Source: Catellatospora vulcania
GTDB lineage: Bacteria; Actinomycetota; Actinomycetes; Mycobacteriales; Micromonosporaceae
Length of the DNA stretch: 64,000 bases
Assembly: GCF_009720385.1 (NCBI RefSeq)
Contig: NZ_ML769301.1
Location: forward strand, 186,001 to 250,000
Reading direction: 5' to 3'
In this document: piece after piece, positions 8,174 through 24,716 of the stretch
Numbering within the stretch: the first letter of the stretch is position 1
Layout: each line of letters opens with the position of its first letter
Notes under the pieces: generated by a model
What the model was told of the DNA's origin: nothing
The model's database searches: none
What the model saw: only the letters and a program-made list of their open reading frames with translations
Made by a program: the position numbers and the translations under genes

Positions 8174-8353
8174 GCGTGCCGCGCGGCGTCACCGATCCGG
8201 AGCTCAGGACACGTCGAGAAGCCGCCGGACCTGGACGACACCCTCTGGGGCGGCGTCCTCGGCGACGACGGCCCCGAGGGCACCCAGGCAGGTGGCCGGG
8301 GTGCCCCGCCAGCGAGAAGTCGTCGGTGGACGAGCGTTCGACGTAAGGTGAAC

Positions 8354-8382
8354 GCCGGGCACCGGCCCTGTCGGTGCCCGGC
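8354..8382 (+). terminator. Hairpin terminator between otsA and the thioesterase
   Basis: GCCGGGCACCG (8354-8364) and CGGTGCCCGGC (8372-8382) form a perfect 11-bp stem with a 7-base loop about 180 bases after the otsA stop. It has no T-run, as is common in actinobacteria. The upstream GTG at 8374 lies inside this stem, which argues against it as the start of the next gene. Confidence 0.6.
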
Positions 8383-8424
8383 GCAGCATGCATTGTGGCC
8401 GCTCGACGACGCTTGGGGAACCCG

Positions 8425-9204: not shown

Positions 9205-9242
9205 TCCGATCACCGCGGCACTTTGCCGCCTACACTGAACCC

Positions 9243-9632
9243 GTGTCGATCAGGGCCGTACGCGGCGCCACCCAGCTTGAGGTCGACGAGCGCGAGCACC
9301 TGCTGGAGCGGGTAGCCGAGCTCGTCAAGGAAGTGCTGCACGCCAACGACCTCGCCGACGAGGACTTCGTGAGCGCGATCTTCACCGCGACCCCGGACAT
9401 CCACTCGGAGTTCCCGGCGTACGCGGCCCGCCAGATGGGGATGGCCGACGTGCCGCTGATCTGCGCACAGGAGCTGGACATCGCGGGCGCCATGCCCCGG
9501 GTCGTCCGCCTGATGGCGCATGTCGAGACCGACCTGGCCCGCGACGAGATCACCCACGTGTACCTGCACGGCGCGGCGATGCTGCGGCGGGATCTCACCC
9601 ACGTGTACGCCAAGTCCGACGACGCGGTTTAG
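9243..9632 (+). CDS. aroH: Chorismate mutase, AroH class
   Basis: A 129-aa monofunctional chorismate mutase of the AroH fold (trimeric, pseudo-alpha/beta barrel) that converts chorismate to prephenate for phenylalanine and tyrosine. Family landmarks are the N-terminal IRAVRGATQLE with the active-site Arg, FTATPDIHSEFPAYAAR, PLICAQELDIAGAMPRVVRLM with the Cys, Glu and Arg that hold the substrate, and the C-terminal HVYLHGAAMLRRDL. The length is as in Bacillus subtilis AroH. GTG start. It is a single gene with a terminator 25 bases after its stop. Confidence 0.93.
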   Translation: MSIRAVRGATQLEVDEREHLLERVAELVKEVLHANDLADEDFVSAIFTATPDIHSEFPAYAARQMGMADVPLICAQELDIAGAMPRVVRLMAHVETDLARDEITHVYLHGAAMLRRDLTHVYAKSDDAV

Positions 9633-9656
9633 GCGCCCGTCGGCGGTCGGGGACGA

Positions 9657-9684
9657 CGGAAGCCGGGCCGCGGCCCGGCTTCCG
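9657..9684. terminator. Palindromic terminator between aroH and the methyltransferase
   Basis: CGGAAGCCGGGCCG (9657-9670) is followed directly by its exact complement (9671-9684), giving a 28-base perfect palindrome between two convergent genes. It probably works in both directions. Confidence 0.75.
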
Positions 9685-9704
9685 TGTCGGTGCAACCGCC
9701 TGAA

Positions 9705-10457
9705 TCAGCTGACGCGTCGTGCCCCGACGACCAGCGAGCCGCCCATCGAGGGCAGCAGCCGGGCCAGTGACCTGCTCTGCAGCCAACGGCCGGTCGGCAA
9801 CTGCCAGCCGACGTAGTTGGACCGGAGCGCGGCCGGGGCGAATCCCGTGTTGCGCAGCAGCCGGCGCAGCGACGAAGCGGTGAAGGGCCGGATGTGCAGG
9901 CGCAGGTACGGGTGCTCGCAGTCGACCTGGCGTGGCGATCGGCCGAGCAGGAAACGCAGCCTGTCCTGCAGCGTGGCGAGGTTCGGGGTGGTGAGCACCA
10001 CGATCCCGCCCGGTTTCAGCACCCGGTGCAGTTCGCGCAGCACCGCCGGCGGCGCGACCAGGTGCTCGATGAGCTCGCCGAGGACGATGGCGCTGAGCGA
10101 GCCCGTGCCGAAGGGCAGCGGGCGTTCGACGTCGAGCTGCACGCCGCCGCCGGCGGGGACCGCGTCGGCGCTGATGTCGGCGGAGATCGGGAACCGGGCG
10201 GCGGGCAGCCGGTCCAGCAGCGTGTGGCCACCGGCGCCGATCTCCAGCACGGGTCCGGGCGGGCAGGCTGCCAGCATGGTGTGGAGCAGGCGGCGGGCGG
10301 CGTCGCGGCGAACCGCGTGGTAGGGGTCGCCCACGTACGCGGTGACGTGTCGGCCGTCGGCGTAGACCGCCACGTTCGCCTCGACGAAAGCCCTGCTCAG
10401 CAGGTTGGTGTCGGCCGCGGCAGGTGCCGGGCCTTGCCGGGTCAGCAGGGCCGTCAT
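9705..10457 (-). CDS. Class I SAM-dependent methyltransferase
   Basis: A 250-aa methyltransferase of the class I Rossmann type. Motif I VLEIGAGGHTLLDRL binds SAM; then come ISADISADAV, the acidic LDVERPLPF region, the post-motif IVLGELIEHL and LKPGGIVVLTTPN. The last third (PYLRLHIRPFTASSLRRLL) is the small C-terminal part seen in Methyltransf_11/23 enzymes acting on small molecules or sugars. Its ATG (10457-10455) overlaps the stop of the cupin gene upstream by four bases, so the two are translationally coupled and probably share a pathway. The substrate is unknown. Confidence 0.85.
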   Translation of the reverse strand: MTALLTRQGPAPAAADTNLLSRAFVEANVAVYADGRHVTAYVGDPYHAVRRDAARRLLHTMLAACPPGPVLEIGAGGHTLLDRLPAARFPISADISADAVPAGGGVQLDVERPLPFGTGSLSAIVLGELIEHLVAPPAVLRELHRVLKPGGIVVLTTPNLATLQDRLRFLLGRSPRQVDCEHPYLRLHIRPFTASSLRRLLRNTGFAPAALRSNYVGWQLPTGRWLQSRSLARLLPSMGGSLVVGARRVS

Positions 10458-11110
10458 GGCGTCAGCGCGCCTGTCGACATCCGGGCCAGCAGGTCGCGGA
10501 CGATCGTGACGGTGTCTTCGGCGTCGAACCGGATGCGGGGGCGGGCGGCCGGTGCGACGTCGAGGGCGCCCAGGCTGAGGTCGCTGGCGTGCTCGCGCAG
10601 CCTGCCCAGCACCACGGTCACCGATTCCGGGCTGCGGGTCAGCGAGGCGTGGAAATGGCCGGCCGGCAGCTCGTAGTATTCGCCGCTGCTGCGGATGTCG
10701 GCGTGGCCGGCGGTGATGCGAACCCGGCGGGCCGAGGTCAGGATCTCGTCGTGGCCGTCTGCCGACCGGATCTCGTATACCCGCAGCGGGCCTTCGGGGT
10801 CGTCGTCGACCTGGTAGGTCTGGTTCAGGATGGAGCCGCTGAGCAGGAAGCTGAGCAGGTCCCAACTGTGGCAGTGGACGGCCGAGGTGGTCCGGGTCGC
10901 GACGTCGGCATCCGACCAGACGTGCACGCAGACCCCGACGTCGGACTGGTCGCGGCTCAGCGGCAGGCAGATGAAACCCAGTGGGTGCCGTACGGCGCGC
11001 AGCTCGGAGCGTCCGTGGGCGATGTCCTGCAGGCCTCCGGCGAGAAGGAGGTCCAGGACGTCGTGTGCGGAGCGGTTTCGGATGGCCCGCTCCAGGCCCG
11101 AATGGTTCAT
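10454..11110 (-). CDS. Cupin-fold protein coupled to the methyltransferase
   Basis: 218 aa. The middle has two cupin-like histidine motifs, AVHCHSWDLLSFLL and later YYELPAGHFHASL, separated by beta strands (RVYEIRS, RRVRITAG), which suggests a single metal-binding beta barrel. The N-terminal ~60 residues are helical (RSAHDVLDLLLAGG) and the C-terminal segment (IRFDAEDTVTIVRDLLARM) is helical too. It has no HTH and no signal peptide. The start at 11110 is chosen because AGGAG precedes it by nine bases; an upstream in-frame ATG at 11164 has no such site. It could be a small-molecule dioxygenase, isomerase or binding protein. Confidence 0.65.
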   Translation of the reverse strand: MNHSGLERAIRNRSAHDVLDLLLAGGLQDIAHGRSELRAVRHPLGFICLPLSRDQSDVGVCVHVWSDADVATRTTSAVHCHSWDLLSFLLSGSILNQTYQVDDDPEGPLRVYEIRSADGHDEILTSARRVRITAGHADIRSSGEYYELPAGHFHASLTRSPESVTVVLGRLREHASDLSLGALDVAPAARPRIRFDAEDTVTIVRDLLARMSTGALTP

Positions 11111-11169
11111 AGACTGACATCTCCTCATAGGGCGGGGCGATTCCGCGCGCTCCGCATGATTCACTTCGC

Positions 11170-14100
11170 TCAGAACAGCGGCGCGTCCAGGTCGAGCTGC
11201 GTCACCTGGGGGATGTGGGCGGCCAGCTCGCCAGCCTCAAATCGGGACATACCAACGATATGCCAAAAATCGCCGGAATGTCCTTGTTTGCCTTTGTGTC
11301 GACCGTCGGGGGTGAACGCCACCCATTCGGCGTCACGCATACCGATCAAGGTGGCCACGGGGGTGACCGCGCCGTCCTCGACCGACCACAGCAAGGTCGT
11401 GCCGTCGCTGCTGCTACTGGCCATGAGCCCGCCGTCGGGGGAGAAGGCCACCGACCACACCCGGTTCAGGTGCACGGCGAGCTTCTGGCGGTGTGATCCG
11501 TCTGCGGCGTCCCAGATGTCGATGATCCCGCTGTCGCCGGCCGTGGCCAGGATCGCGCCCCCGGGGTGGTAGGCCACCGACCACAGCCGCCCCTGCCCGG
11601 GCTCGATCACCTTCTTGACCGTCTGGGTCTCCAGATCCCAGATCAGCACCGTCTCGTCGGTGCTGGCCGAGGCGAGTTCCGCGTGGTGCGGGTGGAACGC
11701 CAGGGCGTACACCCGGCCGGTGTGCCGCGACAGCACGGCCTTCGTGGTGCCCCGTTCCCAGTCCCACAGGCGGATCGCGGAATCGTCGCCCGCGGCGGCC
11801 AGCCGCCTGCCGTCCGGGCTGAACGCCAGCGCGCGTACGCGCCCCCGGTGCTCGCCCAGCGTGATGAAGGTGCGGCCGGTCTTGCGGTAGAGCACCTGGA
11901 TCGTGTTCTCGTCGGTAGCCGCGGCGATCATTGTGCCGTCCGGATTGAACACCGCGGCCCACACGTCGTCGGTCGCGATCTCGAGGTGCCGGCCCTCCTC
12001 GCCGGTCTCGGTGTCCCACAGCAGCACCCGGCCGTCGTTGGTCGCCGTCGCCAGCACCGAGGTCTCGGCGCTGAACACCGCGGAGATGAGGCGGTCGAGG
12101 GGGCGCCGGATCTCCCGCAGCAGCCGCCCGGTACGGGGATTCCACAGCCGGACCCGGCCGTCGTTGCTCGTGGTGGCGAGCATGGCGCCGTCGTTGCTGA
12201 ACGTCACGCTCCACACGCTGCGGTTGTGGCCGGTGATCGTGGACACGAGATTGCCGCTGACCGTGTTCCATACCTTCGTGGTGAAGTCGTTGCTGCTGGT
12301 GACGAGCCGCTCCCCGTCCGGCCGGAACATCATCGGCCACACCGAGGCATGGTGGCGGGTCAGTTCATAGTGGATGGAGCGCGGCTCGGCCTCCCACAGC
12401 CGCACCGCGCCCTCGCTGTCGCCGGAGGCGAAGTACTTGCCGGCGGGGCTGAACGTGATGCGGTACACCGAACCCTCGTGCCGGTCGAGCGGGCGCGGCG
12501 TCGACGAGGCGCTCAGATCCCAGCTCAGCACGGTGCCCTTGGTGTCCGCGCTGACGATCCCGCCACCGGTGGAGTCGAAGTCGAACGCGTAGATGGATCC
12601 GGTGTGCCCCACCAGTTCGTGGGTCAGCTCGCCGCTGTCCGGATTCCACACCCGCAGCACGCCGTCGTCGCCACCGCCGGCCAGCAGCATGCTGTCCCGG
12701 TCGAACCGCAGCCAGTACAGGATGCTGTTGTTGGTGTTGAGCTCATGGCGGACCGTGCCGGTCTCCAGGTCCCAGATCCGGCCGCCGCCGCCTTCGTCGC
12801 CGACGGCCAGCAGCCGGTTCGAGGCGTGGAAGGTCGCCGTCCAGATAGGCGCCCGGTGGTCGCGCAGCGTGGCCCGCAGGCTGCCGTCCGCCACGCTCCA
12901 GATCCGCATCGTGCCCTCGTCGTCGCCGGCGGCGAGCAGCGAACCGTCCGTGCTGAACAGCATCGGCCACACCCAGCCGGAGGATCCGGTCAGCACGTGC
13001 GTGCACTCGCCGGTGTCGGCGTTCCACAACCGTACGGTGCGGTCCAGCGAACCGGTCGCCAGCACCGGCTCCGTGGGGCTGTACATGACGGCGTAGGTGC
13101 GCTGCTCGTGGCCGACGAGCGACCGCAGCGGCTGGGACGACTCGGCGTCGCAGACCAGCACCGTGCCGTCCTCGTTGCCGATGGCCAGCAGGCCGCCGTC
13201 GGCGTCGAAGGCCACCGGTCGCGGCAGCCGGCCCTCCTGGAACCCGAACAGCACGCCGACCGTGGCCGGCATGGTCGCGTTCTCCACCCGCTGGCCGGGG
13301 ATGACCGCGGCCCCCGCCTGCTGCGCCGCGTCCAGCAGAGGCTGCTCGGCGAGCACGTTGACCAGCGCGGCGCGCCGCCACCGGGTGTCCTGCGCCGAGG
13401 CCGAGGCCAGCTGGGCGCGGATGAACCTGGCCCGCGCCAGCCGGGCGCCGTCCAGGCGCGCGCCGGTCAGCGTGGTCTCGACCAGGCTCGCCCCGGTCAG
13501 GTCGGCGCCGGTCAGGTCCGCGCCGGTCAGGTCCGCGCGGTCGAGCACGGCGCCGGCCAGGTTGGCCCGGCACAGGGTGGCCCCGCTCAGATCGGCCTCG
13601 GACAGCTGCGCGCCCGCGAGGTCGGCCTCGGTCAGGTCGATGCCGTGCCAGGATCGCAGCGTCAGATCCTGGCCGCTGAGCACCGCGCCGCGCATGTCGG
13701 ACTGCGGGTACGAGCTCAGCCGCGCGCTGATGCGGCTGGCGTTGGAGCGGGCGGCGTCGGTCGCGCCGGCGTCGCGGCGCACCCGCTGGATCCATTCCTG
13801 GCACAGCCGCGGATCGGCCAGGCCGGCCACGAAGTCGATGGTGAGCAGCGACAGCGGTTTCCACTCCAGCAGCTTGGGCAGCGCGTGGTCCGGATCGTGG
13901 TGCAGCAGGTCGGCGATGTGCCGCGCGATCAGCCACTCCATCACCGAGCCGTGGATGAAGCCGAACAGGCCCTCGTCGGTGCGCCACAGCAGCGAGCCCG
14001 CGCCGACCGCGTGCGCGATCTGCTCCGCGGACAGGTGCCCGGCAGCGAGCCCGGTGAGGGTCCGGGCCACGTCGCCCAGCTCGTCGAGCCCGATCAGCGC

Positions 14101-16716
14101 CTCGTCGCTCTCCCACATCCGGATCGCGAGGCGGGTCACGGCGACCCAGAGGTCGTCGAGGCCGAGACCCACCGGGACCCCGGCGATGTCCTGGGTGCGG
14201 GCCTCCTCGTGGCGCAGCCAGGAGTTGAGGATGTGCCCGTAGAGAGCGGCGGCGCTGACCGTGCCGCGCGCCGCGACGACCGCGCGCAGCTGGTCCTCGT
14301 CGAGGTCGGCGATGAAACCGAGCATGCGGGGGTTGCGGGCGAGGTTGACCAGGTCGCCGATCTGGCCGAGCAGGTCCAGGCGGCGCTGGGCGGCCTGCGC
14401 GTCACCGCCGTAGCGCTGTACGAGCAGGCTGCGGATCTGCTCGGGGGACAGGTCCTCCACGCTGAGGATGCGCCGCTGCGGCAGGCCGCGGGCGTCGCCG
14501 ATCGCGCTGAGCACCTGCGCGTGCGTCTGGAAGTGCTGGGTGCGGCTGGCCACCACGATCTTGGCCTGGCCCTCCGCGGCGGCCAGCAGCCGCTGCAGGT
14601 GCTCCGCGGCCCGCGCGTAGGTCGCGCGGGCGACGAGCTCGTCGAACCCGTCGAAGATCAGCACGATCCGCCCGTGGCTGAGCATGTAGCGGAAGGCCTT
14701 GAGGTCGATCTCGTCGTGGCGGTGGTTGGCCAGGTGCGCCGCGACCAGTCCCTCGATGGTGTGCGCCTTGTCGAGCGTGCGCAGCTCGATGAAGATCGGC
14801 GTCAGCCGCGGCAGCACCTCGGGGATCCGGCGGGCGAGCTCGCGCAGCGCGAACGTCTTGCCCCGGCCGAAGTCGCCAAGCAGCAGCAGGAAGCGGCCGT
14901 CGTCGGTGTCGAGCGTGCGCAGCATCTCCTTGACCAGGTCCTCGCGGACCGGGCGGTTCACCGCGCCGAGGTCGGTGTAGCGCTGCGGCACGTAACCGGC
15001 GGGCGGGTAGATGCGGTCGGTGCGCAGCTGCTCGGTCTGCGCCGCGACATAACTGCCGAGGTTGAGCAGCCCCTGGAACTGGGTGAAACTGCGCAGCCGG
15101 ACGCCGCGCCGCATGGCGTAGTCGCGCAGCGTCGCCGGCGGCTCGAAGACGCCGCTCTGGTAGACCAGTTCCGAATCGATCTCGGGGTCGGCGGCGTGCA
15201 CCCGGGCCAGGAACGCGTCGACGTCGGGCTGGTCGAACCGCCCCGCGCAGGCGCCGATCCGGAACTGGCGGGTGACGTCGCCGTCGGAATAGGTGACCCG
15301 CAGGTACGGCGGCTGCCCGTCGATACGCTGCACGACGGCCCCGGCATGCCGGGCGACGCAGACGTCGACGATCGAGTCCAGCAGCGTGCGACGCGCGTCC
15401 AGGCCGTGCGGCGGCGCGCTGCCGCGGTCCTCGGGCACGCTCGGCGCGTTCCCGTTGTGCCAGGTCGAGCTCGGTGCGGCCGGGGCGATCGCCGGCGGGT
15501 GGCCGGCCGAGCGCGGGAATGTGGCATGGGTGTCGGCCCAGGCGCGTTGCTGCCAGGCCGCAGGGCCGGCCATCCAGCGCTCGCGGGCCGTGTCGTACAG
15601 GCAGGCGACCCGCCGGAACCCGTCCTCGTGCACCCGCAGCAGCTGTGCGGTGTTGCGGTGGGCGGGCGGCCTGCCGGCCGCGGGCGCCGCCGGGCTGCCG
15701 GCGCCGAGCACGGGCAGCCCGGAGCGGGACTCCGCGGCGTCGTCGCCGTGCCCGTGGACCAGCAGGTTGAGGCCCCGGCCCAGGCGCTCGTCGAGATTCG
15801 CCGCGTCGCGCAGGTCCTCCTCGGGGCTGCCCGCCCGGCCCAGCGGGTGGTGGTGCACCATGCCCACGCGCAGCCAACCGCGGTGGCGATACCGCTCCAT
15901 CTGGTCGGCGAACCACTCGGCCTGCTGCTCGCCGACCCAGCCGAAGCGCTCGGTCTGCCGGTGGCTGTCCTTGATGGTGGAGTTGAGGCCCGCCACGACG
16001 ACCTTGAGCGGGGCGATCTCGAACAGGCTCCACGGCTGCTCAGCCTCGATGCGGACCTTGGCGCCCTGCTCCGGCCAGGACTGGAAGAGTTTCGTGAAGT
16101 GCCGCCACTTCGGCCAGTACGGCTCGACCGGCTCCATCTCGTCGGCGTCGCAGTCGGCGAAGTAGGCACGGCACGCCGCGAGGTTGACCTCGTGGTTGCC
16201 CGGCACCACGGCCACCCGGTCGAAGCCGATGCCGAGGTGGCGGGTGAGGCCCTCCAGGAACTCACGTGCCACGTCGAACTCGGCCGGCATGCCGCCGATG
16301 GTCAGGCCCCCGCTGACCAGGACCAGGTCGATCTTCGGCCCGAAGTCGCCGTTGTTGAGCTGGGTGTCGACGCAGCCGCAGAGGTCGTCCAGGACCTGCC
16401 GCCAGGGGCTGCTGTGTTCGGCGCCGAAGACCTTGCCGGGGCCGAGCATCAGGTCGGACAGGTGCAGGATGGTCAGGCCGTGCTCGGCGAGCAGCTCGTC
16501 GGGGGTGATGCCGAGGGCGCGGGCGAGGATCACCACCTCGTCGAGGGGCACCTTCGCCCGGCTGCCGGATTCGATCTTGGCGATGGTGCCCCGGGTGAGC
16601 GAACTCATGCCCAGGCGGGCGCACTCGTCGGCCAGCTTCTGCGCCGACCAGCCGCGCTCATGGCGTAGCTGGCGGATGCGGCTGCCGACGGTGCGGGCAT
16701 CGACGTGACTGTCCAC
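11170..16716 (-). CDS. HTH-phosphoesterase-NACHT-pentapeptide-WD40 protein
   Basis: A five-module protein of ~1848 aa. (1) XRE-type HTH, residues ~8-60 (GSRIRQLRHERGWSAQKLA). (2) Calcineurin-like phosphoesterase, ~81-340: GNHE (173-176), HHH (288-290) and HGH (321-323) are kept, but the DxH motif reads D88-L-M90 and the GD motif has Gly137, so two metal ligands are missing. (3) A linker module ending QFQGLLNLG...YVPQRY (~460-570). (4) NACHT NTPase: Walker A GDFGRGKT (614-621), Walker B LIFDGFDEL (Asp689), VVASRTQHF. (5) A/N-x-L pentapeptide repeats (~1009-1115), then 15 WD40 repeats (~1167-1815) and a tail SRFEAGELAAHIP. The GTG at 16716 follows GAGGAGG by five bases. It is divergent from the TIR gene. 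Probable STAND-type sensor or effector of a conflict system; function inferred. Confidence 0.88.
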   Translation of the reverse strand: MDSHVDARTVGSRIRQLRHERGWSAQKLADECARLGMSSLTRGTIAKIESGSRAKVPLDEVVILARALGITPDELLAEHGLTILHLSDLMLGPGKVFGAEHSSPWRQVLDDLCGCVDTQLNNGDFGPKIDLVLVSGGLTIGGMPAEFDVAREFLEGLTRHLGIGFDRVAVVPGNHEVNLAACRAYFADCDADEMEPVEPYWPKWRHFTKLFQSWPEQGAKVRIEAEQPWSLFEIAPLKVVVAGLNSTIKDSHRQTERFGWVGEQQAEWFADQMERYRHRGWLRVGMVHHHPLGRAGSPEEDLRDAANLDERLGRGLNLLVHGHGDDAAESRSGLPVLGAGSPAAPAAGRPPAHRNTAQLLRVHEDGFRRVACLYDTARERWMAGPAAWQQRAWADTHATFPRSAGHPPAIAPAAPSSTWHNGNAPSVPEDRGSAPPHGLDARRTLLDSIVDVCVARHAGAVVQRIDGQPPYLRVTYSDGDVTRQFRIGACAGRFDQPDVDAFLARVHAADPEIDSELVYQSGVFEPPATLRDYAMRRGVRLRSFTQFQGLLNLGSYVAAQTEQLRTDRIYPPAGYVPQRYTDLGAVNRPVREDLVKEMLRTLDTDDGRFLLLLGDFGRGKTFALRELARRIPEVLPRLTPIFIELRTLDKAHTIEGLVAAHLANHRHDEIDLKAFRYMLSHGRIVLIFDGFDELVARATYARAAEHLQRLLAAAEGQAKIVVASRTQHFQTHAQVLSAIGDARGLPQRRILSVEDLSPEQIRSLLVQRYGGDAQAAQRRLDLLGQIGDLVNLARNPRMLGFIADLDEDQLRAVVAARGTVSAAALYGHILNSWLRHEEARTQDIAGVPVGLGLDDLWVAVTRLAIRMWESDEALIGLDELGDVARTLTGLAAGHLSAEQIAHAVGAGSLLWRTDEGLFGFIHGSVMEWLIARHIADLLHHDPDHALPKLLEWKPLSLLTIDFVAGLADPRLCQEWIQRVRRDAGATDAARSNASRISARLSSYPQSDMRGAVLSGQDLTLRSWHGIDLTEADLAGAQLSEADLSGATLCRANLAGAVLDRADLTGADLTGADLTGASLVETTLTGARLDGARLARARFIRAQLASASAQDTRWRRAALVNVLAEQPLLDAAQQAGAAVIPGQRVENATMPATVGVLFGFQEGRLPRPVAFDADGGLLAIGNEDGTVLVCDAESSQPLRSLVGHEQRTYAVMYSPTEPVLATGSLDRTVRLWNADTGECTHVLTGSSGWVWPMLFSTDGSLLAAGDDEGTMRIWSVADGSLRATLRDHRAPIWTATFHASNRLLAVGDEGGGGRIWDLETGTVRHELNTNNSILYWLRFDRDSMLLAGGGDDGVLRVWNPDSGELTHELVGHTGSIYAFDFDSTGGGIVSADTKGTVLSWDLSASSTPRPLDRHEGSVYRITFSPAGKYFASGDSEGAVRLWEAEPRSIHYELTRHHASVWPMMFRPDGERLVTSSNDFTTKVWNTVSGNLVSTITGHNRSVWSVTFSNDGAMLATTSNDGRVRLWNPRTGRLLREIRRPLDRLISAVFSAETSVLATATNDGRVLLWDTETGEEGRHLEIATDDVWAAVFNPDGTMIAAATDENTIQVLYRKTGRTFITLGEHRGRVRALAFSPDGRRLAAAGDDSAIRLWDWERGTTKAVLSRHTGRVYALAFHPHHAELASASTDETVLIWDLETQTVKKVIEPGQGRLWSVAYHPGGAILATAGDSGIIDIWDAADGSHRQKLAVHLNRVWSVAFSPDGGLMASSSSDGTTLLWSVEDGAVTPVATLIGMRDAEWVAFTPDGRHKGKQGHSGDFWHIVGMSRFEAGELAAHIPQVTQLDLDAPLF

Positions 16717-16768
16717 CGGGGCCTCCTCGTGGCCGATGCCGGAGCCGAACCTATAGGAGAGCATCCAT

Positions 16769-16903
16769 CGGAGCACAACGCCATAGCTGAGGGAAAGTTG
16801 CTCCGATCATCCATTCGAGTGTGTCTCCAAGGCGGGGGAGCAGTGGATCGTGAACGGAGCAATCGCGGTCGTGACCGGAGCGCTGCTCGATCCAGGGCGG
16901 AGC
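16769..16903. promoter_or_regulatory. CGGAGC box cluster in the divergent control region
   Basis: The hexamer CGGAGC occurs at 16769-16774, 16855-16860, 16876-16881 and 16898-16903 on the plus strand and at 16800-16805 on the minus strand. The first and the minus-strand copy form an inverted repeat (ATCGGAGCA / TGCTCCGAT, 16767-16775 and 16799-16807). The last three are 21 and 22 bases apart, two turns of the helix. The region separates the start codons of the HTH-NACHT gene and the TIR gene, so an operator array is likely. Binding by the HTH of the NACHT protein is inference. Confidence 0.5.
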
Positions 16904-16984
16904 GATCTTCCCGGACATCCGCCGTGGTGACGCGAAGTGTTGAGAATGTTACGGATATGGTGGGTCGTCGGGCACACTGGCGAG

Positions 16985-18442
16985 ATGGACCGATCCGTCG
17001 ACCGCTATCGATCAAACCCGTTGCTCGACTTCTTCATCAGCTACTCGCCGATGGACGAGGCATGGGCGGTCTGGATCGCCTGGGAACTGGAGGTCGCCGG
17101 CTACCGGGTCATGCTGCAGGCGTGGGACTTCGTCGCCGGCTCCAACTTCATCGAGTTCATGGACCGCGGCGTCAGCCAGTCCGGCGCCGTGATCGCGGTG
17201 CTGTCGGAGAACTACCTGCGCTCCCGGTACGGGCGGATGGAATGGCAGGCGGCGCTGCGCTCCTCGCCCGACGCCCCGGAACAGCGGCTCATCACCGTCC
17301 GGATCGAGGAGTGCCGCCTGGTCGGGCTGCTGGCCACGATCACCTTCGTGGACCTGGCCTCGGCGACCGACCGCGCGCAGGCCCGCCGGCTGCTGCTCGA
17401 CCGGATCGGGCACGCCGTGCACGGCCGCGCCAAACCCGAGGTCGAGCCGGCCTTCCCTCCGCACCGGCCCGCGGCCGGGGCAGCCGGCACGGCCCGCGTC
17501 GAAGGTCCCGCGGACACGCGCCGGCGACACCCGCGGGGGCTCGCCGCCGACCAGGTGCCGTTCCCGCCGGCGGACCTTGAGTCACGGCGCTGCACCGTGC
17601 TGCACGTGGCCGGTCCCGGCTACGAGAAGGCCCACGTCGGCACCGGGGCCGGCGCCCGCGACGCGGACGACCTGGTCCGGGCTCTCGCCGACGGTGCCGG
17701 GCAGCCGAGACCCGACATCGTCGCGATCTCGGGCAGCCTCACCAACACCGGCAGCATCCGCGAGTTCGACGAGGCACGCGCCTTCGTCACCGGGCTGCGC
17801 GCCGGACTCGGCCTGCCCGCGCACCGGATCGCCGTGGTGCCGGGCCCGCGTGATGTCACCTGGGCGGCGTCGCAGGCGTACTTCGACAACTGCGAGGCCG
17901 ACCAGGTCGAGCCGGAACCGCCGTACTGGCCCAAGTGGCGCCATTATCGGCGGTTCTTCTCCGACGTCTACTCCAGCGTCGAAGGCGCCGATTTCGTCGC
18001 CGGTCAGCCCTGGAGCCTGTTCTCGATTCCCGATCTGCGGATCGTCGTGGCCGGACTCAATTCGACGATCGCCGAGAGCCATCGGGCTTCTGATCATTAC
18101 GGCTGGCTCGGCGTTCACCAGACGCGATGGTTCGCCGAGGAGATGAGCGAATTCGGGGCCGACAACTGGCTGCGGATCGGGCTGATCAGCCAGCCGCCGC
18201 AGCAGCTGCGCGACGAGGCCCGGGTGCGGCGCATGCTGGCTGACTCCTTCTCCGTCGTGTTGCACGGGTCGGAGGACCGGTTCGGCGACGAACAGCTCAC
18301 CCGTCCGCGGCCGACCGTCTGGAAAGCGGCCGCGGCGGCCTCGCCCGGCCGGGCGCAATTGGTCTCGGTGCGGATCTCGCCCGACGAGGGCGGGGTCGAG
18401 ATCGAGGATTCGACAATGCTGGGCGCCCCGTTCGGGCAATGA
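16985..18442 (+). CDS. TIR domain - degenerate phosphoesterase protein
   Basis: 485 aa. Residues 13-140 are a TIR domain: DFFISYSPMDEAWAVWIAWELE, AGYRVMLQAWDF, FIEFMDRGVSQSGAVIAVLS and YLRSRYGRMEWQAAL, where Glu86 is at the place of the catalytic Glu of NAD-cleaving TIR enzymes. Residues ~199-440 clearly match the phosphoesterase module of the two NACHT proteins nearby (PPYWPKWRHYRRFF; VVAGLNSTIAESH). Every metal-binding motif is lost, however: LHVAGPG for the DxH site, SGS for the GD site, GPRD for GNHD, ISQPP for the HH site and HGSED for GHGH. It is therefore a pseudo-phosphoesterase. ATG 16985 gives MDRSVDRYRSNP; a GTG at 16937 is possible. It is the first gene of the plus-strand unit with Trypco1 and the trypsin-NACHT gene. 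Confidence 0.85.
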   Translation: MDRSVDRYRSNPLLDFFISYSPMDEAWAVWIAWELEVAGYRVMLQAWDFVAGSNFIEFMDRGVSQSGAVIAVLSENYLRSRYGRMEWQAALRSSPDAPEQRLITVRIEECRLVGLLATITFVDLASATDRAQARRLLLDRIGHAVHGRAKPEVEPAFPPHRPAAGAAGTARVEGPADTRRRHPRGLAADQVPFPPADLESRRCTVLHVAGPGYEKAHVGTGAGARDADDLVRALADGAGQPRPDIVAISGSLTNTGSIREFDEARAFVTGLRAGLGLPAHRIAVVPGPRDVTWAASQAYFDNCEADQVEPEPPYWPKWRHYRRFFSDVYSSVEGADFVAGQPWSLFSIPDLRIVVAGLNSTIAESHRASDHYGWLGVHQTRWFAEEMSEFGADNWLRIGLISQPPQQLRDEARVRRMLADSFSVVLHGSEDRFGDEQLTRPRPTVWKAAAAASPGRAQLVSVRISPDEGGVEIEDSTMLGAPFGQ

Positions 18443-18536
18443 CATCTCGACAGCCGATCACGGTCTCTTATAGACTCGCGAAACGCTGTCACTTCAGCTA
18501 CCAGCGACGACGCATGTCCGACGGGTGGAGCAGCTT

Positions 18537-18881
18537 GTGACATACCTGATCGAGATCCCTGTCGACAGCGGCGGGCGGATGCTCGTCCAGCCCGCCAAGG
18601 CGATGATCGCGCGCGAGCCCGAACTCGCCGCGACCGGACCGTCCTCGATCGTCCGGGTGGCCGAGTCCCTCGAGAAGAGCCTGGCCAGACTGAAACCCGC
18701 GCTGGCCGCGCTGCACGCCAATCTGGTCGCACCCGGGGCGGCCGAAGTCTCCGTCGAGTTCGGCATCCTGCTCGGAGTCGAATCCGACCTGGTGGTGGCC
18801 TCGGGCAAGAGCGAGGTCCACTTCACCGTCCACGTGACGTGGCCGGGCACCCGCCCGGCGGCCACCGCAGACCAGGCGTGA
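18537..18881 (+). CDS. Trypco1 domain protein (CU044_2847 type)
   Basis: A 114-aa protein of the trypsin-co-occurring domain 1 family, found in actinobacteria next to trypsin-like proteases in NTPase-centred conflict systems. The pattern is MTYLIEIPVDSGG at the start, a central helix (VAESLEKSLARLKPALAALH) and the signature AAEVSVEFGILLGVESDLVV followed by FTVHVTW. Its stop is three bases before the TTG of the trypsin-NACHT gene, so the two are certainly cotranscribed and probably coupled. GTG 18537 is chosen because GGAG lies six bases before it; GTG 18525 is possible. A TATAGACT sequence near 18470 could be a -10 element. The molecular role is unknown; a partner or inhibitor of the protease domain is plausible. 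Confidence 0.85.
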   Translation: MTYLIEIPVDSGGRMLVQPAKAMIAREPELAATGPSSIVRVAESLEKSLARLKPALAALHANLVAPGAAEVSVEFGILLGVESDLVVASGKSEVHFTVHVTWPGTRPAATADQA

Positions 18882-18884
18882 CCC

Positions 18885-21800
18885 TTGGCCGTCACCATGC
18901 GGCCGGAAACCTTCGTCGTCGCCGTCCTCAACCGCGCCGGACGCGCGGTCGGCTGCGGTGTCCTGCTCGGGCCGCGCCAGATCGTCACCTGCGCGCACGT
19001 GGTCAATGCGGCGCTGGGCCGGCCCGCGAACGCGCAGGACCGGCCAGAGGGTCCGATCACCGTCGAGTTCCCCTTGCTGCGCCCCACCGGACGGCAGGCG
19101 GTGCGCCACTTCGAGGCGGTGCTCGACGTGTGGCATCCGCCCGCCGAGCGCGGCACCGACGGAGAGGACCTGGCCGGACTGATCCTGCAGGAGGACCCGG
19201 CCGCGGTCGGCGCGCTGCCCGGCCGGCTGGCGGCGGCCCATCCCGCCCCGGGCGACCAGGTCCGCCTCTTCGGCTACCCGGGCGTGCCCCCGCGGCCGGA
19301 CGGCGGCTGGGTCACCACCACCGTCCGCGGCCTCGTCGGCGGCCAGCGCATCCAGCTGGACTCCCCGCTCGACTCCGCGCTGCGGGTGCAGCCCGGATAC
19401 TCGGGCACGCCGCTGTGCGACGAGGCCACCGGGGCGGTGGACGGCCTGCTGGTCGCGGCCGCGCCCGGGCAGGACGACAACCGGGACAGCTACGCGATCA
19501 ACATCGACCGGATCAGGCACGCCTGGCCGCAGCTGTTCGACACCTCCGGCGGTCGCGTGCCGCATCCGCGCTCCGGCGGCGAGGCGCACCGCAACAACGA
19601 CCAGATCACCGTGCTGCACCTGTCGGACGCCAGGTTCGGCGAGGACAGCCTGTTCGGCGGCAACGGCGGCGCCAACCGCCGCGACCACGAGGACAGCCTG
19701 TTCGGGCAACTGCACGACGACCTCGACCAGCTGCGTGACGAGCGCGGCATCGCGCCGGACCTGATCGTCGTCACCGGGGACCTCGCCGAGCAGGGCCGCC
19801 CCAGTGAGCTGGCCAGAGCGATGGAGTTCATCGGGGCCGCGGCCGAGAAGGCCGGCGTGCCGCGCCGGCACGTGGCGATCGTGCCCGGCAACCACGACAT
19901 CAGCCGGCTGGCCTGCCAGGCCTACTTCGCCGAGCAGGCCAGCGCCGAGCGGGAACCGCACCGGCCGTACACCCCGAAGTGGCGCTTCTTCAAAGAGGCG
20001 TTCGAGGAGTTCTACGCCGGCGAAGCCGACTTCGCGTTCCCACCCGAAGAGCAGTGGACCCTGTTCGAAATGCCGGAGCTGCGGCTGGTCGTCGCGGGGA
20101 TGAACTCGACGATGGCGGAAAGCCACCTCGACTCCGACCACCACGGACTGGTCACCGAACGGCAGTTGCGCTGGTTCGCCCAGCGCCTGCGGGGGTACCG
20201 CAACCAGGGCTGGCTGCGCCTGGGCGCCGTCCACCACAACGTGCCCCGGGCGGCCGCGGACGACACGGAGAACCTGCGCGACGCGGCCGCGCTCGACCGG
20301 ATCCTCGGCCACGCCCACCTGCTCAACGTCCTGCTGCACGGGCACGGCCACAGCGGACGGCCGCTCCGGCTCGCCTCCGGGCTGCTGACCCTGTCGACCG
20401 GGAGCGCCGCGGTCGACGTCGCCGACCGCCTCGCCGAGGTGCCCAACCAGTATCAGCTCATCACCCTGCGACCCGGTGAGCTGACCCGGTACGCGCGCCA
20501 GTACGTCACCGGCCGCCGGCGCTGGATGGGTGACCCCCGCGTCAGCTCCACCGGCTTCGACACCTGGGCGAGCGAGCCGCACGAGCTGGTGGGGTGCCAG
20601 GTCACGTTCAGCGCCGCCGAGCCCGACACCGGCTCCGTCGAGGCCGACGCGCACACCGCGGCAGACGGTGCCGACCCGCTCGTGCCCGCGCCGCGCACAC
20701 CCACCGACAGCAGCCTGTTCGCCCAGGTCATCCGCGCGCTGCGGGCGCGGTTCCCGCACGCCCAGATCGAGGACCGGCCGGACGCGGGCTACCTGCGGGT
20801 CACCAATCCCGTCCCCGACGGCGGCGGGGTCCAGGTCTGGCCGGTCGGCATCGTCAACGGCACCGCCGACCAGGCCGCCGTCGACGCCTTCATCGCCGAC
20901 GTCCACTCGCAGTTCGAGTTCAACCGGCCGATGATCCTGTCCGAGCTGGTCCACACCGGGCCGCCCGTCTCGCGGTCCCTGACGGCGGCCGCCCGCCGCC
21001 GGGGGGTGTGGCTGCGCAGTTTCATCGAGTTCCAGGGGCTCATCGACCTGCGAGAACTGGTCGAGCGGCAGACCGCGCGGCTGGCCAACGACCAGGTGGA
21101 CTCGCCCGCCTTCTACATCCCGCAGCGGTACCGGCTGCTGACCTCCCGCGACCAGGGCGTCCGCGACGACCTCGCCGGCGCGATCACCACCTGGCTCGGC
21201 GCCAAGAACGCCCGGTTGATCATCGTCCTCGGCGACTTCGGACGCGGCAAGACCGCGCTGCTGCGCCAGCTCGCCCGTGCCCTGCCCGACGAGCTGCCGG
21301 ACCTGCTGCCGATCCTGGTGGAACTGCGGCACCTCAACCGGCGCAACACCATCGACGAGCTGCTGGCCCAGTTCCTCATCGAGAACAACGTCGAGGACAT
21401 CACCGCCACCCGGATCCACTACATGGTGGCCAGCGGCCGCCTGGCGCTGCTGTTCGACGGATTCGACGAGCTGGAACAGCGGGTGGGCTACGACAACGCC
21501 GCGGAGTACCTGCAGCGCCTGCTGGATTCGGTGACCGAGGACGCCAAGCTCGTCCTCACCAGCCGGACCCAGCATTTCCAGTCGACCGAGCAGGTCCGCA
21601 CCGCCTTCGGCGCCCGGGTCGCGAACCTGCCCGGCAGCCGCATCGTCTCGCTGGAGCCCTTCAGCCAGCAGCAGATCATGGCGTACCTGGAGCACCTCTA
21701 CGGCGGGGACACCGCCGCCGCCCGCACCCGCTTCCAGCTCCTCGACGAGGTCAAAGACCTGCTGCAATTGGCGCAGAACCCGCGGATGCTGGCTTTCATC

Positions 21801-24716
21801 GTCGAGCTGGACGAGCGCCGGCTCAGGGAGGTGCAGCGTCGCGAGGGCCGGCTGAGCGCCGCCGAACTCTACCGCGAGCTGATCGACTTCTGGCTCGGCG
21901 TCGAGCACGAGCGCGAGCAGGACGCGGTCCTGCGGCGCTTCGACAAGTCCCGCCGTGACGCCTGCGACCTGCTCGCCAGCCGGCTGTGGTCGTCGGGCCG
22001 GACCGGGGTGGGCGCCGACGAGCTCGCGGAGGTGGCCACGATGCTGACCGCGCTCACCGACCTGCGGATCCGGACCTCCCACGTGGCCCACGCGATCGGG
22101 ACGGGCAGCCTGCTCGTGCGCACCGACGACGGCCAGTTCAGCTTCGTGCACCAGTCGGTGATGGAGTGGTTGGTCGCGGACATGGCCGCGGGGGCGCTGC
22201 GCCGCTACCAGGCGCCGTCCGGTCTGCTGGACAACCAGGCCTCGGACCTGATGATCGACTTCTTCGTGGACCTCGCCGGCCCGCAGGTGGCCTCGGACTG
22301 GGCCCGCCGGAGCCTCGGCGACCCGCAGGCCTCCGAGGTCGCCAAGCAGAACGCGCTCAAGGTGCACAACCGCACCGCCGCACTGCTCGGCAACCCGCCG
22401 ACCGAGCAGCATCTGGTGGGCGTGGACCTGCGCGGGCAGGACCTCACCGGCCGCGACCTGAGCCAGGCTGATCTGCGGGAGGCGAATCTGCGCGGGATGA
22501 GACTGCTGCGGGTCGATCTCGCCGGGGCCAACCTGGACGGCGCAGACCTCACCGGGGTGCGCTTCATCGGCGGCAGCCTGCATGCCGCCCGGCTGGCCGA
22601 CAGCCGTTGGGAGATGGCCGCGATCCTCGGCGACGTGGGCCTGGACGTGGCCGCGCATCCGCACCTGCGCGACGTGGCGCTGCCCGGCCGGGATCCGGCC
22701 GAGGTGCAGATCGCCTCCGGCGGTGCCGCCGCGGCCGTGGCCGTCTCACCCGACGGCCGGTTCCTCGCCGTCGCGCGGATGAACACCGTGGAGTTCGTCG
22801 ACCGCGCGTCCGGCCGTACGCTGCGCAACTTCACCGGCCACGCCGGTTTCGTCTCGGCGGTCGCGTTCTCACCCGACGGCCGCAAGCTCGCCAGCGTGGC
22901 CGACGACCGTACGGCCCGACTGTGGGACGTGTTCGGTGACGAGGGGCCGCTGGTGCTGCGCGGGCACGACGCCATCGTGACGGCCGTGGCCTACTCCCCG
23001 GACGGCCGGCTGCTGGCCACGGGCTCGCATGACCGCACCGTGTACCTCTGGGAGACCGGCACCGGTGCGGTTCGGGCCACCATCGCCGGGCACGGCCGGC
23101 CGATCAGCGGCGTCGCCTTCTCCCCGGACGGCCGGCTGCTGGCGACCGCGTCCCACGACCGCACGGCACGGATCTGGCACCTCGGCAGCGGCCGGACCGT
23201 GCACGTGCTCAAGGGCCACTCCGGGCTCGTCACCGCGGTGGCCTTCGCCCCGGCGGGCAATCGCATCGTGACGGCGTCGCAGGACCGCACCGCGCGGCTC
23301 TGGGACGTCAGTTCCGGCACGTCGCGACTGACCCTGGTCGGCCACACCGACGCGGTGAGCGCGGTGGCGTTCCATCCCACCGGTCGCACGGTCGCGACCG
23401 CCTCCTACGACGCGACGGTGCAGGTCTGGGACGCGGCCTCGGGCCAGCGCCAGTCCACGCTGGTGGCGCACACGGGCGCGGTGAAATCGCTCGCCCTCAC
23501 CCGCGACGGCGCGCTGCTGGTCAGCGCATCGGCCGACCAGACGGTGCGGGTCTGGGACCTGCCGACGGGCCAGGTCCGCTCGACGGTCTCGGCGACGGCC
23601 GACTCACTGTCCGGGGTGGCGTTCACCGCCGACGGCCGGACGCTGCTGACCGTGTCGCGTGACGGGCCGGCCCGCACCTGGGACGTGGCCACCGGCCGCC
23701 TGCGCAGCACGTTCGCCGGGCACGCGGCGCGGGCGGCTTCGGCGGCGTTCGCACCGGCCGGCGACCGGCTGGCAGTCGGCATGCCCGATCACCGCGTGCA
23801 GGTGTGGGACGTCAACGGGGGCAGCGGCAACACCGCGCGGCAGGAGCTGCGTGGCCATTCCGGCACCGTCACGGCCGCGGCCTTCTCCACCGACGGCACC
23901 ATGCTGGCCACCGCCTCCGACGACCACACGGCACGCGTCTGGTTCCTGGGCGGCGCGGCGGCGCCGCTCTCCCTGGACCACCACGGCGCGGTGACCGCGA
24001 TCGCCTTCGCGGCCGACTCCACGCGGGTGGCGACGGCGGCCGACGACCGGTCGGTGCGGGTGTGGGACGTCGCGACGGGTCAGCCGACCGCCACCATGCC
24101 CGGTCACACCGGCTTCATCACCGCGGTCGCCTTCTCCTCCGACGGAACGAAGCTGGCCACCGCCTCCTATGACGACACCGCCCGGATCTGGGACGCCGTC
24201 ACCGGAACGGTGGTCCACCTCCTCAAGGGCCACACCGGACCGGTCACGGCGGTGTCCTTCTGCGGTGACGGCCGCCGCGTCGCCACCGCCTCCCACGACA
24301 AGACGGCCCGGATCTGGGACGTCCGAACCGGCGAGGTGCTGGCCGAACTCGCCGGCCACACCGGCTTCGTGACCGGCGTCGCGTTCTCCCCGGACGGCAG
24401 CCTGCTGGCCACGGTGTCCGCCGACCGCACCGCCCGGATCTGGGACGTCGCCACGGGCGCCGAGCGGGCGGCACTGCTCGGACTGCGCGACGACGACTAC
24501 GCCGTGCTGCTGCCGAACGGCTCCTACAAGCTCGACGGCGACCCCCGGGACACGCTGTGGTGGAGCCTGCGGCTGTGCCGGTTCGAGCCGGGCGAACTCG
24601 ACGACTACGTGCCCTCGCTCCGCCGGCTCGAGGCCGACGAGGTGATCATCGACGTCGTCCGGCGCACGTCCGGCGGCAGAAGGTCGCGATCAGGACCGCG
24701 GCCGACGAGCGAGTAG
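18885..24716 (+). CDS. Trypsin-phosphoesterase-NACHT-pentapeptide-WD40 protein
   Basis: 1943 aa. (1) Trypsin-like serine protease, ~5-220: TCAHVV (His38), EDLAGL (Asp95) and QPGYSGTP (Ser173) form a complete triad. (2) Calcineurin-like phosphoesterase, ~243-520: GD (Asp299), GNHD (335-338), HH (450-451) and HGHGH (485-489) are intact; only the His of DxH is replaced (D248-A-R250). (3) Linker module with EFQGLIDLRELV and YIPQRY (~600-745). (4) NACHT: Walker A GDFGRGKT (783-790), Walker B LLFDGFDEL (Asp858), LTSRTQHF. (5) Pentapeptide repeats (~1179-1242). (6) 14 WD40 repeats (~1287-1865), enough for two seven-bladed propellers, then CRFEPGELDDYVP as in the divergent NACHT protein. TTG 18885 or ATG 18897 is the start. 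A ligand-triggered NTPase switch that activates a protease is the likely design. Confidence 0.88.
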   Translation: MAVTMRPETFVVAVLNRAGRAVGCGVLLGPRQIVTCAHVVNAALGRPANAQDRPEGPITVEFPLLRPTGRQAVRHFEAVLDVWHPPAERGTDGEDLAGLILQEDPAAVGALPGRLAAAHPAPGDQVRLFGYPGVPPRPDGGWVTTTVRGLVGGQRIQLDSPLDSALRVQPGYSGTPLCDEATGAVDGLLVAAAPGQDDNRDSYAINIDRIRHAWPQLFDTSGGRVPHPRSGGEAHRNNDQITVLHLSDARFGEDSLFGGNGGANRRDHEDSLFGQLHDDLDQLRDERGIAPDLIVVTGDLAEQGRPSELARAMEFIGAAAEKAGVPRRHVAIVPGNHDISRLACQAYFAEQASAEREPHRPYTPKWRFFKEAFEEFYAGEADFAFPPEEQWTLFEMPELRLVVAGMNSTMAESHLDSDHHGLVTERQLRWFAQRLRGYRNQGWLRLGAVHHNVPRAAADDTENLRDAAALDRILGHAHLLNVLLHGHGHSGRPLRLASGLLTLSTGSAAVDVADRLAEVPNQYQLITLRPGELTRYARQYVTGRRRWMGDPRVSSTGFDTWASEPHELVGCQVTFSAAEPDTGSVEADAHTAADGADPLVPAPRTPTDSSLFAQVIRALRARFPHAQIEDRPDAGYLRVTNPVPDGGGVQVWPVGIVNGTADQAAVDAFIADVHSQFEFNRPMILSELVHTGPPVSRSLTAAARRRGVWLRSFIEFQGLIDLRELVERQTARLANDQVDSPAFYIPQRYRLLTSRDQGVRDDLAGAITTWLGAKNARLIIVLGDFGRGKTALLRQLARALPDELPDLLPILVELRHLNRRNTIDELLAQFLIENNVEDITATRIHYMVASGRLALLFDGFDELEQRVGYDNAAEYLQRLLDSVTEDAKLVLTSRTQHFQSTEQVRTAFGARVANLPGSRIVSLEPFSQQQIMAYLEHLYGGDTAAARTRFQLLDEVKDLLQLAQNPRMLAFIVELDERRLREVQRREGRLSAAELYRELIDFWLGVEHEREQDAVLRRFDKSRRDACDLLASRLWSSGRTGVGADELAEVATMLTALTDLRIRTSHVAHAIGTGSLLVRTDDGQFSFVHQSVMEWLVADMAAGALRRYQAPSGLLDNQASDLMIDFFVDLAGPQVASDWARRSLGDPQASEVAKQNALKVHNRTAALLGNPPTEQHLVGVDLRGQDLTGRDLSQADLREANLRGMRLLRVDLAGANLDGADLTGVRFIGGSLHAARLADSRWEMAAILGDVGLDVAAHPHLRDVALPGRDPAEVQIASGGAAAAVAVSPDGRFLAVARMNTVEFVDRASGRTLRNFTGHAGFVSAVAFSPDGRKLASVADDRTARLWDVFGDEGPLVLRGHDAIVTAVAYSPDGRLLATGSHDRTVYLWETGTGAVRATIAGHGRPISGVAFSPDGRLLATASHDRTARIWHLGSGRTVHVLKGHSGLVTAVAFAPAGNRIVTASQDRTARLWDVSSGTSRLTLVGHTDAVSAVAFHPTGRTVATASYDATVQVWDAASGQRQSTLVAHTGAVKSLALTRDGALLVSASADQTVRVWDLPTGQVRSTVSATADSLSGVAFTADGRTLLTVSRDGPARTWDVATGRLRSTFAGHAARAASAAFAPAGDRLAVGMPDHRVQVWDVNGGSGNTARQELRGHSGTVTAAAFSTDGTMLATASDDHTARVWFLGGAAAPLSLDHHGAVTAIAFAADSTRVATAADDRSVRVWDVATGQPTATMPGHTGFITAVAFSSDGTKLATASYDDTARIWDAVTGTVVHLLKGHTGPVTAVSFCGDGRRVATASHDKTARIWDVRTGEVLAELAGHTGFVTGVAFSPDGSLLATVSADRTARIWDVATGAERAALLGLRDDDYAVLLPNGSYKLDGDPRDTLWWSLRLCRFEPGELDDYVPSLRRLEADEVIIDVVRRTSGGRRSRSGPRPTSE

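Follow-up and report, generated by a model that had tools for sequence, protein, structure and literature searches.

In the present study, we analyzed a 64,000-nt stretch of the genome of Catellatospora vulcania (assembly GCF_009720385.1, contig NZ_ML769301.1, positions 186,001 to 250,000 of the forward strand; hereafter the window), in which two large NACHT proteins, a TIR protein and a Trypco1 protein are encoded side by side. Our best explanation is that two independent modules, both belonging to one actinobacterial STAND/NLR-like family, are neighbours here by chance. Unit A comprises an HTH-CPE-iREase-NACHT-WD40 protein, a cupin, a methyltransferase and a stand-alone TIR-CPE protein; unit B comprises a Trypco1 protein and a trypsin-CPE-iREase-NACHT-WD40 protein (CPE, our label for the calcineurin-type phosphoesterase domain of these proteins; iREase, inactive restriction endonuclease domain). 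The NACHT protein of unit A would be a switch that clusters the TIR protein through paired metal-less CPEs, with the cupin and the methyltransferase gating it. Taken whole, this explanation has in our judgement about an even chance of being correct. The genes concerned are as follows, in window coordinates.

9705..10457, minus strand: class I S-adenosylmethionine methyltransferase of unit A; 250 amino acids (aa); its ATG start at 10457 overlaps the cupin stop; Methyltransf_23 (Pfam, 1.3e-17).
10454..11164, minus strand: cupin of unit A; 236 aa; predicted fold nearest thiol dioxygenases (AlphaFold/Foldseek); invariant H97, H99 and H172.
11170..16776, minus strand: HTH-CPE-NA-iREase3-NACHT-pentapeptide-WD40-conserved C-tail protein of unit A, the proposed sensor/switch; 1868 aa; domains from Pfam, Walker A/B motifs present.
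16777..16936, no strand: divergent intergenic region between the HTH-CPE-NACHT and TIR-CPE genes; one GGAGCAAC half-site at 16797-16804.
16937..18442, plus strand: stand-alone TIR-CPE protein of unit A, the proposed NAD-cleaving effector; 501 aa; TIR at about 17024-17461 and CPE at about 17591-18304; TIR_2 (8.5e-34).
18525..18881, plus strand: Trypco1 protein of unit B; 118 aa; PF19493 (1.1e-15).
18885..24716, plus strand: trypsin-CPE-NA-iREase3-NACHT-pentapeptide-WD40-conserved C-tail protein of unit B; 1943 aa; from Pfam, NCBIfam and family trees.

The separation into two units comes from the neighbourhoods of their relatives in a family sample of 200 genomes and at named loci; a class sample of 394 genomes was used for TIR-CPE and the cupin (the genomes G000, to which the window belongs, and G045 are common to both samples). 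Stretches of up to 20 kb were fetched around the family-level matches and around 80 named loci, which are the best 80 of 119 from an alignment scan with the HTH-CPE protein and form a biased sample, and were annotated with profiles built on the window proteins. HTH-CPE-NACHT genes were found at four loci, namely the window, L057 (genome G088), L064 (genome G001) and L071 (Micromonospora sp. ATCC 39149), and at all four the genes for TIR-CPE, the cupin and the methyltransferase are nearby. At the latter three, a single strand carries HTH-CPE-NACHT, cupin, methyltransferase and TIR-CPE in this order; the window retains all four unit A genes, but with TIR-CPE divergent and on the opposite side of the HTH-CPE-NACHT gene. 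No gene for trypsin-CPE or Trypco1 was found within the fetched stretches of 20-21 kb at L057, L064 and L071. In the family sample, HTH-CPE relatives at E <= 1e-100 occur in only three of the 200 genomes (the window genome, G001 and G088). Genome-wide, Trypco1 has no match in G001 or G088, and among the nine candidates scored per genome these two have no CPE match at E <= 1e-20 beyond their own HTH-CPE and TIR-CPE. Conversely, Trypco1 together with a trypsin-CPE-NACHT protein was found at four other loci (L042, L066, L068 and L069), with no HTH-CPE-NACHT or TIR-CPE gene in the 20 kb around each, and six further trypsin-CPE proteins (L040, L041, L049) occur without Trypco1. One of the four, L066 (G000:C5), is a second Trypco1 and trypsin-CPE-NACHT locus of the window's own genome, on another contig (39% identity over 1834 residues). 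Genomes G058 and G007 carry both TIR-CPE and trypsin-CPE proteins, but 1.4 Mb apart or on separate contigs. Furthermore, the large protein of unit B clusters with those of L068 and L069 in the trees of the NACHT domain (support 99/97) and of the CPE (99/93).

The preliminary description of this DNA had read the same genes as one four-gene immune complex, in which a TIR, a protease and two NACHT switches are joined by a common phosphoesterase. The genes are adjacent, homologous CPEs occur in three of the four proteins, and the two large proteins are 39% identical across 1740 aligned residues; the part of that proposal in which the phosphoesterase of three linked proteins may hold parts together still stands. 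However, because of the neighbourhoods described above, with unit A lacking the protease pair at 3/3 other loci, the Trypco1-protease pair lacking HTH-NACHT and TIR-CPE at 4/4 loci, and L066 being of the unit B type with no TIR-CPE in 20 kb, we reject the single system and regard it as very improbable. The description had itself named rare co-occurrence of HTH-NACHT, TIR-CPE, Trypco1 and protease in relatives as an argument against it, and this is what was found. The neighbouring Trypco1-protease pair is corrected here to a separate unit. At L039 and L070, two CPE-NACHT genes converge tail to tail, and trypsin is encoded by a separate gene in the vicinity.

Most of what the preliminary description had said of the single proteins agrees with the domain calls, which also support its statement that ingredients of conflict systems are present. 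The four reading frames that it had given (11170-16776, minus; 16937-18442, 18525-18881 and 18885-24716, plus) are open, with a third-position G+C of 88-95% in all four, as expected for coding; the adjoining genes at 10454-11164 (cupin) and 9705-10457 (methyltransferase) were not listed there. Pfam was run on a subset of the open reading frames of the window, with 25 families listed per large protein (for the trypsin protein, the best 25 of 62, plus a scan of the N-terminal 1140 aa). The two giants had been described as NACHT-pentapeptide-WD40 proteins with a phosphoesterase, one of them with an HTH, and Pfam agrees: HTH_3/HTH_31, Metallophos, NACHT, Pentapeptide and WD40 in the unit A protein, and Trypsin_2, Metallophos, NACHT and WD40 in the unit B protein, all exceed the cut-offs (NACHT, 2.8e-9 and 5.4e-15 in the two). 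The pentapeptide region of the latter has NCBIfam matches below cut-offs only (best 4.8e-13). Between the CPE and NACHT domains, both have an NA-iREase3 domain (PF22739; 1.5e-34 and 3.3e-33), an inactive restriction endonuclease domain named for NACHT proteins that had gone unnoticed, and both end in a tail of about 64 residues common to most family members. That the TIR protein carries the same phosphoesterase module was also borne out: the protein has no Pfam call for Metallophos, and the assignment is based on 42% identity to the domain of the HTH protein and on an NCBIfam match below the cut-off (NF053862, 2.9e-13). Its structure model is of moderate confidence (predicted local distance difference test score, pLDDT, 69.7), and Foldseek matched it to Rv0805 with a template modelling score normalized by the target (TMt) of 0.72 and to isolated TIR domains with TMt of 0.49-0.84; the predicted fold of the CPE is thus that of Rv0805-type phosphodiesterases. 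The Trypco1 frame ends at 18881, three bases before the TTG (18885) that opens the protease frame, as had been noted, with ATG 18897 as an alternative possible start. The protease motifs described as intact (TCAHVV, DLA and GYSGTP) are present, and we take them to be the catalytic triad of a serine protease.

The core of CPE, iREase, NACHT, WD40 and tail recurs with varied front ends (TIR, HTH, trypsin and others). At 72 of the 80 named loci, in Actinomadura, Streptomyces, Nonomuraea, Microbispora, Streptosporangium, Frankia and others, TIR-CPE-iREase-NACHT-WD40 is one chain, and the TIR-CPE frame has 1910-2670 aa in most relatives against 503 in the window, 476 in G088 and 654 in G001. Domain trees were built from 45 rows (NACHT) and 51 rows (CPE), with 23 fused rows kept as a chosen subset, and with short domain slices and four loci truncated at the start of a contig excluded. 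In the NACHT tree, the four HTH proteins lie inside the TIR-fused line of 28 rows (23 fused TIR, four HTH and one TIR-less; 100/99). In the CPE tree, the four stand-alone TIR-CPEs cluster (91/82) inside the fused TIR line (28 rows, 97/95), and the CPEs of the four HTH proteins form a separate clade (100/99). By both placements, one unit A gene looks like the half that the other lacks. Most simply, the split pair would derive from, or have a common origin with, the one-chain protein, each half keeping a CPE. The four genes are similarly conserved: between G001 and Micromonospora, the identities are 82% (switch), 77% (TIR-CPE), 78% (cupin) and 77% (methyltransferase), and between the window and the other split loci they are 37-56%, of similar magnitude for all four. 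Two points speak against our best explanation: the split form is rare, with four loci in total, and a search of 343 genomes of the order gave, at E <= 1e-100, no HTH-CPE relative but that of the window. Nor was one found at E <= 1e-20 in the 10 other searched genomes of the genus. In Actinomadura sp. J1-007 (L096, 9335-15192), TIR-CPE and iREase-NACHT are in two overlapping frames, for which a frameshift or a sequencing error is possible, and other short TIR-CPE frames occur in the class sample (G448:C429, G340:C180, G457:C157 and G370, the last at L160).

A further finding is that the cupin accompanies one TIR-CPE line from genome to genome. In the family sample, TIR-CPE over both domains was found in 16 of 200 genomes (43-57% identity, the window aside), and all 16, but none of the remaining 184, have a cupin at E <= 1e-79; weaker copies appear in six additional genomes once the threshold is relaxed to E <= 1e-5. 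In the class sample, a cupin at about E <= 1e-45 is present in 19/19 genomes of this TIR-CPE line (G448 counted from pieces at contig ends) and in 3/375 others. At the 72 fused named loci, the cupin was found in 68, and in 62/62 where at least 8 kb of upstream sequence is present; it was found at none of the 13 TIR-less CPE loci fetched from the family as controls, nor at a further locus, L072. At 43 of the 62 full fused loci, coaE, uvrB or rpsA is in the stretch. At 19 of the 62 none of these is, and in nine of the 16 family-sample genomes the cupin is distant yet present (9-30 kb from TIR-CPE in G045, G058, G082, G096, G127, G140 and G192; on another contig in G113 and G116), which weakens mere synteny as the cause of the linkage. 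In two samples, then, no genome of this line of TIR switches lacks the cupin, which gives a handle on what the switch senses or needs.

Several points weigh against so simple a picture. The class-sample line was set post hoc at about 46% identity over both domains, and this limit is not clean, as G007 of the family sample (43%) has the cupin. In seven class-sample genomes, which have a divergent TIR-CPE (36-48% identity), the cupin has no match; G349, G430 and G456 have the cupin with no such TIR-CPE, as do two more genomes with weak cupins (about 1e-14); and the cupin match has an in-frame stop in G512 and G520. Fisher values for the co-occurrence overstate it because related genomes are not independent, and genome-wide absences are not exhaustive because few candidates (3, 7, 9 or 14, depending on the search) were scored per genome.

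Other genes follow the same line. The methyltransferase is present in 15 of the 16 TIR-CPE genomes of the family sample and in none of four control genomes. A protein with two putative transmembrane segments (two-TM protein) is present in 13 of the 16, the three without it being the split genomes, and is missing from all four controls; it was found at 61/62 full fused loci, with two hydrophobic segments in five of six examined, and has no Pfam match over the cut-off and no match in a sequence search of the PDB. An inositol-monophosphatase family protein was found at 58/62 (Pfam values of 3e-37 to 8e-42 for the three that were scanned). In G349, G430 and G456 (L151, L152 and L153), the cupin adjoins a two-TM gene with no TIR-CPE, so that the role of the pair may be wider; at L151 there are, in addition, an inositol-monophosphatase family gene and a weak match to TIR. 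At L075, L083 and L138, the one-chain gene lies between uvrB and coaE/rpsA together with the two-TM protein and the cupin; such loci often have the inositol-monophosphatase family protein and sometimes a CitMHS/ArsB-type transporter. At L043, a distant two-TM relative (7833-8780, 6.7e-32) is directly upstream of a TIR-less CPE-NACHT protein (8821-14094).

The window cupin matched no Pfam or NCBIfam model, and its sequence has no match in the PDB at E <= 1. Its AlphaFold model (pLDDT 89.5) has bacterial cysteine, mercaptosuccinate and mercaptopropionate dioxygenases as top Foldseek matches (E from 1e-5 to 2e-4, probability 1.0); among the 50 matches listed, which include quercetinases, seed-storage proteins and other cupins, the template modelling scores are 0.26-0.41 normalized by the query and 0.19-0.59 by the target. 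The predicted fold is nearest to thiol dioxygenases, though with modest template modelling scores and other cupins close behind. H97, H99 and H172 are invariant in 25/25 aligned rows, and we infer that they may be the ligands of a three-histidine iron site.

Together, these data suggest how unit A may work. The NLR-like STAND architecture is present: a NACHT domain with Walker A/B motifs (kept in 4/4 HTH proteins and 90/90 fused TIR proteins, and present in both large window proteins), an N-terminal effector and C-terminal repeats. The WD40/pentapeptide part would sense a cue, and the NACHT domain, with its Walker motifs kept, would oligomerize on ATP. The CPE on the switch and that on the separate TIR protein would dock the two, and the domain may also bind a nucleotide-like ligand. 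Clustering of TIR domains would then switch on NAD cleavage, by analogy with other TIR effectors, and lead to growth arrest or cell death; E102 of the TIR domain, presumably the catalytic glutamate as in the family, is invariant in 25/25 rows. The HTH probably autoregulates the operon through palindromes in the promoter. The least certain step is that of the cupin and the methyltransferase, which would probably produce or alter a small molecule by which the switch is armed or gated. By analogy with known systems of this build, unit A may serve in phage defence.

The idea of docking comes from the state of the phosphoesterase. In a survey of 125 CPE proteins (three cut or frameshifted TIR-CPE proteins, including that of L160 with masked residues, were tallied separately), a complete set of metal ligands was found in none, and the first motif, DxH, is without its His in every one; the preliminary description had missed this loss. 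In the window, most metal ligands are gone from the stand-alone TIR-CPE, and we reject its phosphoesterase as a working enzyme. Because none of the 125 CPEs keeps the metal site, a role in docking or ligand binding rather than in catalysis is suggested for a domain that is metal-less yet kept in sequence and fold on both a switch and a separate effector. An alternative possibility could be that the CPE is an active enzyme that degrades a cyclic nucleotide, as in DS-8, a system in which catalytic mutants are defence-deficient (PMC13092281, as far as its accessible text goes). The Rv0805 fold family is in keeping with such an enzyme, as are matches of all three CPE proteins to the NCBIfam model DS9_1 (2.9e-13 to 4.1e-26, below the cut-off), and the trypsin-CPE protein retains the motifs GD, GNHD, HH and GHxH; set against the loss of the first-motif His in 125/125 and of a complete ligand set in every protein, we consider enzymatic activity quite improbable. 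Most relatives have switch and effector in one chain, and four loci have them split with a metal-less CPE on both halves; nature has thereby made an experiment of its own, and since the CPE is kept on both split halves, docking can be tested by domain deletion.

Another explanation of the TIR-CPE-NACHT/cupin set is that it is a vertically inherited sensor of stress or a metabolite, which acts in growth or development and not in phage defence. It accounts for the many fused loci at one chromosomal place (those with coaE, uvrB or rpsA in the stretch), a constancy that defence islands do not usually show and that speaks against a defence role, and for the metabolic partners (cupin, methyltransferase and inositol-monophosphatase family protein). 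Furthermore, TIR-CPE over most of its length was found in no plasmid record except a chromosome-sized one of Nonomuraea, and viral contigs have no relative at the sensitivity of the scan; the single chromosomal place and the absence from the plasmid and viral collections leave room for a stress-response role. On the other hand, TIR, NACHT, WD40 and inactive restriction endonuclease domains are standard parts of bacterial NLR-like defence, and the split form is patchy, with no relative in the searched congeners as described above. A check for an empty insertion site within the genus found the flanks never to be direct neighbours in congeners; only G016 has both on one contig, about 17 kb apart. 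A PHROGs search gave weak matches to families of unknown function only. We consider such a sensor unlikely, although it deserves attention. We hold, tentatively and with some doubt, a more specific idea that goes with the clustering of TIR by the NACHT switch, namely that a small-molecule branch (the thiol-dioxygenase-like cupin and the methyltransferase, and in the one-chain form also the inositol-monophosphatase family and two-TM proteins) controls the switch and that the metal-less phosphoesterase became a docking domain, allowing sensor and TIR effector to be two separate genes. If so, the CPE would be a dead-enzyme counterpart of the adaptor domains of animals and plants, and redox or sulfur metabolism would be coupled to immune cell death.

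NACHT switches with exchangeable effectors, Trypco1-trypsin pairs and phosphoesterase-NACHT defence are already known kinds. Kaur et al. (2020, PMC7159879) described Trypco1-trypsin pairs in VMAP/MoxR-vWA ternary systems, and in the principle of the effector-associated domain (EAD; Kaur et al. 2021, PMC8195603) effectors are recruited through a domain common to effector and core protein. In the portions of these two papers that are available to us, the likeness is in the Trypco1-trypsin pairing and in exchangeable N-terminal effectors of TIR, trypsin and calcineurin type. As with an EAD, the same CPE is found on effector (TIR-CPE) and switch (HTH-CPE-NACHT), encoded by neighbouring genes at 4/4 loci; it is, however, a phosphoesterase of about 250 aa that has lost its metal site, a former enzyme and not a small adaptor, and no cupin or methyltransferase partners were found in those portions. 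No MoxR, vWA or VMAP protein was found among the window proteins scanned. DS-8 has a phosphoesterase and NACHT in one protein, both needed for defence (PMC13092281, within its accessible text), and likewise the window proteins combine a metallophosphatase fold and NACHT. In that text, the predicted catalytic residues of DS-8 and DS-9 are required, whereas here the metal site is lost, and TIR, HTH or trypsin, NA-iREase3 and WD40 are extra parts. The NCBIfam equivalog of DS-8 gives the two large proteins 21.0 and 32.1 bits (cut-off 790), DS9_1 gives 49.5-91.9 bits (cut-off 420), the intact active site of DS-8 is found in 0/125 proteins, and no HAD domain, the partner in DS-9, was among the Pfam results of the window proteins scanned.

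Avs and bNACHT proteins (as named in PMC10907252, insofar as its text could be consulted) are alike in having an N-terminal effector, a central STAND/NACHT and a C-terminal repeat sensor; here, the effector can be a separate gene, and there is a cupin partner. The Avs models of PADLOC gave no match at E <= 0.01, the matches obtained being to TIR, HTH, trypsin, phosphoesterase, repeat and ATPase parts of other models. Thoeris and the short prokaryotic Argonaute (pAgo) system SPARTA have in common with unit A the TIR fold and, probably, NAD cleavage; here, TIR activation would instead be by a NACHT protein that bears the same CPE. SPARTA TIRs are among the Foldseek matches, the pAgo-linked TIR and bSEFIR models of PADLOC match the TIR part only, and SIR2, SLOG and Argonaute have no match among the window proteins scanned. 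In the literature searched, whose scope leaves out most subscription journals, neither the TIR-CPE/cupin association nor a metal-less phosphoesterase common to a switch and a separate TIR protein was found described.

As for the proposed autoregulation, a scan of 2.45 Mb gave only five palindromes scoring at least 20, none of them more than about 220 bp from the HTH gene start in L057, L064 or L071; the next-best score is 15.4, away from HTH gene starts. Three of the five were used to build the scoring matrix, so that only two are independent, and two of the five fall inside the longest frame, before a later start codon. In the window, no palindrome of comparable strength was found (best intergenic score 2.8), which speaks against this part of our explanation, and the word GGAGCAAC occurs twice in 64 kb against 1.8 expected by chance. 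The half-site at 16797-16804, which resembles the palindromes of L057, L064 and L071, is suggestive only.

Elsewhere in the window, the genes at 37044-50801 form a cluster for sugar uptake and breakdown (LacI regulator, ABC importer, TIM-barrel isomerase-like protein, aldolase-dehydrogenase fusion and FGGY kinase); it is rhamnose-like, the identity of the sugar being a guess. A SecA-like gene (34367-36832, minus; 821 aa) is possibly an accessory SecA2. A serpin gene (59482-60909, minus; Pfam Serpin, 1.6e-81), whose product might conceivably restrain the unit B protease, is located about 35 kb from the trypsin-NACHT gene.

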